Shown piece after piece: positions 28,692 through 29,962 of a DNA stretch of 64,000 nucleotides. The position numbers and the translations under genes are program-made. The notes under the pieces are model-generated. The model was not told the origin of the DNA. It made no database searches and saw only the letters and a program-made list of their open reading frames with translations. Source of the DNA: Mariprofundus sp. NF (GTDB lineage: Bacteria > Pseudomonadota > Zetaproteobacteria > Mariprofundales > Mariprofundaceae). Every line of letters begins with the position of its first letter. Within the stretch, counting starts at the first letter, position 1. The stretch covers positions 62,001-126,000 of the forward strand of contig NZ_VWNC01000006.1 of the NCBI RefSeq assembly GCF_013387455.1, in the 5' to 3' direction.

Positions 28692-29471
28692 TTAATCCCA
28701 GATGTAACCTTCAGTTGGTGATGAAGCACTGGCAAAGGCGCGTTTTGGCATACGTCCGGCCAGATAGGCCTGACGCCCTGCCCTGACTGCATCGCGCATC
28801 GCTTTAGCCATCAGACACTCATCTTTGGCTTCTGCAATGGCAGTATTAATCAGTACAGCATCTGCACCCAGCTCCATCGATTTCGCAGCATCAGAAGCAG
28901 TACCAATGCCGGCATCGACAACAATCGGAACCGATGCGCGCTCTTTGATGACGCGAATATTGAACGGATTAGCAAGTCCACGTCCTGAACCGATCGGATT
29001 ACCCAGTGGCATCACTGCCACGCAACCAATCTCCTCCAGCCGTGTTGCCACAATCGGATCATCATTGGTGTAGACCATCACCTCAAAACCCTCTGCAACC
29101 AGCGTCTCGGCGGCATTGATCGTCTCAACCACATTGGGATAAAGCGTCTGTGTATCGCCAAGCACCTCCAGCTTCACAAGGTTCCAGCCACCGGCTTCAC
29201 GAGCCAGACGCAGGGTGCGCACCGCATCATCGGCATTAAAACAGCCTGCTGTATTAGGCAGAATGGTATATTTTTTCGGATCGATATAATCGAGCAGATT
29301 CTCTTTGCCAGGGTCAGTAATATTCACACGACGCACAGCCACAGTAATCATCTCAGCATCTGATGCTTCGGTAGCATCTTTGGTGGTCTGAAAATCTTTG
29401 TATTTACCAGAGCCTACAATGAGTCTCGATCTGAACTCATGGCTACCTACTTTAAACATATCATCAGACAT
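28692..29471 (-). CDS. thiG: Thiazole synthase
   Basis: ThiG builds the thiazole phosphate of thiamine from deoxyxylulose phosphate, dehydroglycine or iminoglycine and the ThiS thiocarboxylate. The 259-residue TIM barrel shows [19 protein letters not shown] (Schiff-base lysine region), [28 protein letters not shown] and [30 protein letters not shown]. Start at ATG 29471; a second ATG four codons in is possible. It lies downstream of thiS in the same direction, separated by an unusual 281-base hairpin-rich spacer. No thiamine riboswitch was recognised upstream. Confidence 0.97.
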
Positions 29472-29752
29472 CTAATCAAACTCCCCTTCCGCACAATCTG
29501 TACGGGAAAACGTCGCAACTTTTGCTCTTTTGTGCAAGCACGGGATGAATCATCCCATACACTAAGCAATAATTCCCTTCCGCACACGACGTGCGGCTTT
29601 TGACTCAGGCTATCCTGAGCCTTCGAGGCTGTGCCCCGCAGCATGCGTCCAATTCGGCTATTCTTCCGAATTGTGTAAACAGGCGAAAATCACACTTTCC
29701 GACTGCGAAAACAAGTAAAAGCCACGCAAGCCTTTTATGAATCGATCAAACC
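29472..29752 (-). other. Hairpin-rich spacer between thiS and thiG
   Basis: A 281-base spacer within the operon with several short palindromes: CAATTCGG/CCGAATTG (29649-29672), CTCAGG/CCTGAG near 29604-29618, GCAC/GTGC near 29582-29596, and GGGATG/CATCCC near 29542-29555. The word CCCTTCCGCAC occurs twice (near 29484 and 29576). A 65-codon frame crosses it but looks non-coding. Confidence 0.5.
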
Positions 29753-29962
29753 TTATCCGCCACCGATCATGTGAACCAGTTCAATGCGGTCACCATTTTT
29801 CAAAGCGGCGCTCTCATACTGGCTTCTGGGAACCACCTCAAGATTACACTCAATGGCAATCATCCGTTTCTCCAGTCCCATTTCAGTTACCAGTTCACTC
29901 AGGGTGGTTGCCTGCACTATCCGGTCTTCGCCATTGATATGGATGGTAATCTCGTCAGACAT
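29753..29962 (-). CDS. thiS: Sulfur carrier protein ThiS
   Basis: ThiS is a ubiquitin-fold sulfur carrier; its C-terminal Gly-Gly receives sulfur as a thiocarboxylate for thiazole synthesis. The 69-residue product ends in HMIGGG, has the ubiquitin-like pattern ITIHINGED...TTLSELVTEMGLEKRMIAIECN and the typical NGDRIELVH end strand. The start is ATG 29962 with AGGGG five bases upstream; the open frame reaches further back to 30046 but that part lacks the fold. MoaD would be the alternative, but the downstream thiG makes ThiS the better call. Confidence 0.92.
   Translation of the reverse strand: MSDEITIHINGEDRIVQATTLSELVTEMGLEKRMIAIECNLEVVPRSQYESAALKNGDRIELVHMIGGG

Follow-up and report, generated by a model that had tools for sequence, protein, structure and literature searches.

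A partly decayed copy of a dispersed, REP/BIME-like palindromic repeat between thiS and thiG in Mariprofundus sp. NF

MITEs are small, non-coding, dispersed and foldable elements that lie near genes and carry terminal inverted repeats, and the CsrA-binding RNAs of the CsrB/RsmZ type have hairpins with GGA in the loop. Another group of palindromic repeats is described by Di Nocera et al. (2013; PMC3733652), where the CGTC-tagged REPs have a CGTC tag, a stem of 8-9 bp, a loop of 4-5 nt, AT first pairs and a CCA tail, and are without a dedicated transposase. We investigated a hairpin-rich spacer of Mariprofundus sp. NF, an iron-oxidising bacterium, in relation to such elements. In the window, that is, the whole 64,000-nt stretch of DNA analysed, an intact thiG ORF (28692-29471, minus strand; 259 aa) and an intact thiS (29753-29962, minus strand; 69 aa with a Gly-Gly-Gly end in its sequence) enclose the spacer (29472-29752, minus strand), a composite of hairpins by sequence and fold. 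Since thiG ends at 29471 and the thiS stop lies at 29753, the gap is exactly 281 nt, the length by which the initial annotation had described this junction as split. Near-full-length matches in 17 other members of the genus put the thiG orthologues at 89-98% identity, one more genome gave a partial match, and tblastn matches to thiS lie directly upstream of thiG in relatives. The minus-strand gene order is thiS, spacer, thiG and a gene that we take to be hemE-like; beyond thiS, presumed TPR and aroQ-like genes (all three named from similarity to known proteins) lie on the opposite strand. Across the 18 genus genomes in which both genes were placed the spacer measures 58-281 nt, ours being the longest, and across 13 genomes of other genera in the same family it measures 7-107 nt. 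The description of this junction as usually tight thus suits most of the other genera and Mariprofundus less well.

Nine hairpins can be read from the sequence on the operon (minus) strand, in agreement with the short palindromes reported earlier. From the thiS side, hairpin A (29716-29737, minus strand, found by eye) is decayed, with mismatches relative to paired versions in two genomes, G001 and G070, and a hairpin like it stands upstream of dispersed copies in G187. Hairpin B (29679-29706, minus strand, from the fold) is common to G001 and G070. The core repeat unit (29599-29675, minus strand), defined by covariance model R1 and by covariation in its family, is made of four hairpins on the same strand: H1 (29650-29673), H2 (29637-29647), H3 (29626-29636) and H4 (29607-29622). 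Hairpin C (29580-29596, minus strand) is followed by a Shine-Dalgarno-like GGAAGGG (29575-29581), and its equivalent lies directly before the thiG Shine-Dalgarno sequence in G001, G020 and G070. The remainder is the thiG leader (29472-29571, minus strand), recognized by a sequence match as common to G009, the closest relative; it contains hairpins D (29542-29556) and E (29489-29505), both on the minus strand. The candidate GGAAGGGGAG (29481-29490, minus strand), which adjoins hairpin E, is likely the thiG Shine-Dalgarno sequence, and a GGGGAG-type sequence before thiG is retained in relatives. The repeated word previously noted is indeed present, as the 12-mer CCCTTCCGCACA at 29484-29495 and 29575-29586. 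The word CCCTTCCGCAC forms the 3' arm, with Shine-Dalgarno-like bases, of hairpins C and E; the first copy belongs to C and the second precedes thiG. It lies outside the core, which its two hairpins flank.

The composite occupies the thiS-thiG junction in this genome (G000), in G001 of the same genus and in G070 of another genus, and is absent from G009. Minus-strand nucleotides 1 to ~178 match the spacers of G001 (134 nt, having lost most of the core) and G070 (by its coordinates, about 185 nt), in both of which the thiG Shine-Dalgarno sequence comes immediately after hairpin C. From ~190 to 281 the sequence corresponds to the 105-nt spacer of G009; this match to the leader covers 88 nt at 89% identity (87.1% by pairwise alignment). 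The window spacer therefore resembles one type placed after the other, and this arrangement accounts for the repeated word, C and E being successive leader hairpins. In a further genome of another genus, palindrome-rich sequence including a C-type hairpin covers 239 nt or more upstream of thiG, as far as the contig reaches (L303; G072:C7, 1-239), and so the thiS-thiG junction seems to collect such elements.

We then investigated copies elsewhere. BLAST found no second copy of the spacer in the 2.53-Mb genome, of whose 24 contigs C6 carries the window, other matches having E-values of 0.38 or weaker. A search of 74 family genomes with the spacer picked up a single hairpin, CAATTCGG...CCGAATTG, as short matches scattered over many unrelated sites, and the sequence around these revealed a longer common unit, in tandem at some of them. 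Covariance model R1 (14 units, 78 positions) matched 29599-29675 on the minus strand with 69.9 bits and E 2e-16, its only match in the window at E<=1, and found 38 copies in this genome at E<1e-4 and 45 at E<=10 (the E-values from covariance models are rough). Of the 74 genomes of the taxonomic family, 51 carry the repeat, as do 65 of the 299 sampled across the phylum (41 from the same family, and 24 from outside it: 2 from the same order and 22 from elsewhere). Carriers range from Zetaproteobacteria to distantly related Pseudomonadota. The copy numbers are minimum values, because searches over more than 40 genomes used stricter filters and scored a limited number of candidates. The spacer is thus unique to BLAST alone. 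The initial annotation's suspicion of an inserted structured repeat is borne out by a core that is one of 38 structure-matched copies in a strongly covarying family, and its counter-case, a unique sequence with unconserved hairpins, fails. No Rfam match, thiamine riboswitch included, exceeds the gathering score in the window, and at E<=1 eight loci gave one tRNA and two weak, chance-like matches. The family has no entry in Rfam 15, and we found no description of it in the literature searched, including term searches of PMC12306157 and PMC2817692; sequence words of the repeat retrieved only an unrelated herpesvirus paper. The family appears to be undescribed.

The unit is ~74 nt long and folds into four hairpins. 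Among 142 copies (141 distinct) from 99 loci searched with model R2, which was built from alignment A2, the 141 distinct copies show double-sided changes at 20 of 21 base pairs, with 95.8% of cells paired and a covariation of 0.604, compared with 0.150 for shuffled and 0.045-0.078 for slid controls; this alignment is fitted to the structure, so the pairing and covariation figures lean towards it. An unfitted MAFFT alignment of 14 units gave 87.8% paired and a covariation of 0.324 against 0.133. All four hairpins covary strongly. The segment 29599-29675 genuinely belongs to a widespread family of REP/BIME-like palindromic elements, as a copy that has decayed locally.

Several observations point to mobility. 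Tandem copies occur at a 74-nt period in this genome, for example at C1:198806, 198880, 198954 and 199028. A core unit at L170 (G000:C2:230295-230372) splits a 5S rRNA copy that is followed directly by an intact one; at this same locus the intact copy reads CGGCG-CAAAGGAG and the split copy reads CGGCG, 74 nt, CAAAGGAG. Near-identical copies stand at different places in G031, G081, G125 and G002. G001 and G003 are without the element at L253, and G009 has a different family member in the same gap; the L194 segment is found in G009 and absent from G001. The gaps at L253 and L194 take in adjacent sequence and do not represent clean excisions. Ten of 116 clusters start within a sequence resembling a tRNA T-arm (GGTTCGA or GAGTTCGA, with (A)ATCC-like sequence after it), where ~0.006 would be expected from the background density of GGTTCGA, although some of these loci may be orthologous and the ten are then not ten events. 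A tRNA or tmRNA gene is present at eight of the ten. Stems formed by the flanks, available for 67 of the 116 clusters, score a mean of 3.03 against 2.62 +/- 0.13 in 200 shuffles, and stems of 7 or more number 2 against 0.35; a preference for palindromic targets in general is suggestive only.

Some side observations concern the same sites. The T-arm-like starts are L184, L193 and L247 in this genome and L145, L339, L344, L346, L363, L364 and L381 in others. They are mostly near an intact tRNA-Ser, tRNA-Gln or tmRNA; GAGTTCGA is used once, and one site lies outside Zetaproteobacteria (G094). In G016, a unit adjoins 5S-like sequence (L034). At L252 (G000:C7:67000-70100), two units lie between what appears to be a duplicated start of a nucleotidyltransferase gene. 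At L241 (G000:C1:572688-573055), a tandem array is broken by an inverted variant unit nested in a unit, which suggests that units insert into units.

Possible sources and partners were also considered. Empty copies of the palindrome hosting L194 were sought within the genus, and the exact pattern occurred in 0 of 23 genomes. The 281-nt spacer has no plasmid match, and the repeat consensus has one Aeromonas match, to a stretch that carries no annotation in the table examined, and no phage match; a plasmid or phage origin was rejected. We found no dedicated transposase. Y1_Tnp is present in 13 of 16 element-bearing genomes (absent in G001, G072 and G125), and a copy lies within the fetched stretch at 5 of 30 Y1 loci (30 of the 41 listed Y1 matches were examined). 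A Y1/RAYT partner was rejected, given the three carriers without Y1_Tnp and the few Y1 loci with a copy nearby.

We consider it probable that the thiamine operon tolerates a mobile, REP/BIME-like palindromic element in this spacer, in the form of an old, partly decayed core copy joined to an ordinary thiG leader. The spacer would be a mosaic of palindromic DNA, in which the core with flanking hairpins A, B and C became fused to the leader, and 29599-29675 would be the remnant of a dispersed, probably mobile ~74-nt element. Copies may have spread as single-stranded or cruciform DNA hairpins with an enzyme acting in trans, for which a hairpin-recognizing HUH/Y1-like transposase would fit. Insertion may take place after an 'NA' dinucleotide, sometimes into other palindromes, yielding nested mosaics.

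Alternatively, the repeat might be a CsrA/RsmA-binding RNA, its dispersed and tandem copies serving as sites or sponges in 3' and intercistronic regions. GGA is found in the H1 loop of 89 and in the H4 loop of 99 of 107 non-redundant copies, so that two of the four hairpins carry A(N)GGA, which is the primary CsrA motif according to PMC4066749. Of 21 element-bearing genomes examined, 20 gave a CsrA match, a count that covers carriers only. G-U mismatches exceed A-C mismatches by 43:22 (p 0.012, for sequences that are not independent; earlier counts were 35 to 17, and 23:14 with p 0.19). The conserved loops and the mild G-U excess are a hint of RNA-level selection. However, G065 has 61 copies in a 95% complete genome without a CsrA match, and the window copy has lost GGA from its H1 loop (AGAATA). 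Strand bias is also lacking in the larger count. Copies are mostly intergenic and favour gene ends, and with genes called by codon scoring, and without 7 loci from beyond the class, we counted 18 sense and 17 antisense clusters in tandem gene gaps, 18 in convergent and 8 in divergent gaps, 11 of mixed orientation, 8 inside or overlapping a gene and 13 with a flank missing. A cruder count, in which every ORF of 100 aa or longer was accepted, yielded 18 sense against 5 antisense; the codon-scored count is preferred because crude ORFs include spurious frames over the repeats. This genome alone gave 7 sense and 2 antisense in tandem gaps, and the window's gaps of at least 100 nt comprise 12 tandem, 7 divergent and 1 convergent. 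Provisionally, there is no clear strand preference. We regard a CsrA-binding role as improbable. It is similarly doubtful that a self-amplifying array element spread horizontally through Pseudomonadota with hairpins that are putative CsrA-binding sites, preferring palindromic targets such as tRNA T-arms and 5S. If so, a selfish DNA repeat would rewire post-transcriptional control wherever it lands, here in the thiamine operon.

The composite itself could be a conserved cis-acting RNA of the thiS-thiG mRNA (for processing, stability or coupling), selected for thiamine synthesis. Two genera have this composite at the junction, and between them it is more alike than thiS: identity to G070 is 79.5% for the composite, 63.2% for thiS and 77.8% for the first part of thiG, and identity to G001 is 84.7%, 75.6% and 81.6%, respectively. 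Judged from sequence, the composite is more conserved than a neutral relic should be, which is the main argument against regarding it as purely neutral. The minus strand folds at -101.9 kcal/mol against -82.9 +/- 4.6 in shuffles (z -4.14; 0 of 200 as good), while the plus strand is unremarkable (z -1.38; 15 of 200 as good). By eye, the hairpin abutting the thiG Shine-Dalgarno sequence has changed stems in several relatives, its arms being misplaced in the MAFFT alignment A3. On the other hand, the composite exists in only 2 of the 18 genus genomes in which both genes were read, plus G070, and the closest relative is without it. The core occurs commonly at sites distant from thi genes, a C-type hairpin lies away from thiG at an unrelated site in G003 (L045), and the window has neither a thiamine riboswitch nor another Rfam match; we consider a selected cis-acting function unlikely. 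An independent small RNA gene in the spacer, as the initial annotation had proposed, is very improbable despite the strong folding, since there are no Rfam matches, the sense strand of neighbouring genes is not preferred (the 18 to 17 above) and the repeat family explains the structure.

Under the preferred reading of a tolerated mobile element, the hairpins would be carried in the thiSG transcript. As neither gene is disrupted and thiG retains a Shine-Dalgarno sequence of its own, the composite may have cost translational coupling and perhaps altered local mRNA stability, with no required function; we infer a passive role in the thi operon. Taken by itself, the window copy is unremarkable genomic clutter. 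As a family, the repeat is a compact unit of four hairpins in which nearly every pair covaries, and its 5S rRNA, tRNA T-arm and tandem-array loci offer defined sites for testing how transposase-less REPs spread. It is also a possible source of false claims of small RNAs and operon regulation.

Compared with the known systems, the repeat shares A(N)GGA in hairpin loops with CsrB/RsmZ, but consists of many dispersed copies on either gene strand and has no Rfam match. Like MITEs it is small, non-coding, dispersed, foldable and gene-adjacent; unlike them, it has no terminal inverted repeats spanning the unit and forms head-to-tail 74-nt arrays. H1, with a 9-bp stem, is preceded on the opposite strand by CGTC in the common form (GAGTC instead in G081 and G110), and the outer stem is AT-rich, which in part recalls the CGTC REPs as described above. 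It differs from that description in a loop of mostly 6 nt instead of 4-5, a first pair of C-G instead of A-T, the lack of a CCA tail, a tag whose CG pairs in H2 and three more hairpins. REP/BIME elements are single 20-40-nt palindromes with a GTAG tag and a RAYT gene flanked by the repeat, whereas this unit of ~74 nt has four hairpins, no GTAG at its ends and no consistent Y1 transposase partner. It is nevertheless like the GTAG, RAYT-associated REP/BIME in being short, palindromic, multicopy, intergenic, gene-end-biased and clustered with covarying stems, and the 38 copies of this genome, mostly in gene gaps, provide the many intergenic palindromic copies by which REP/BIME families are recognized.
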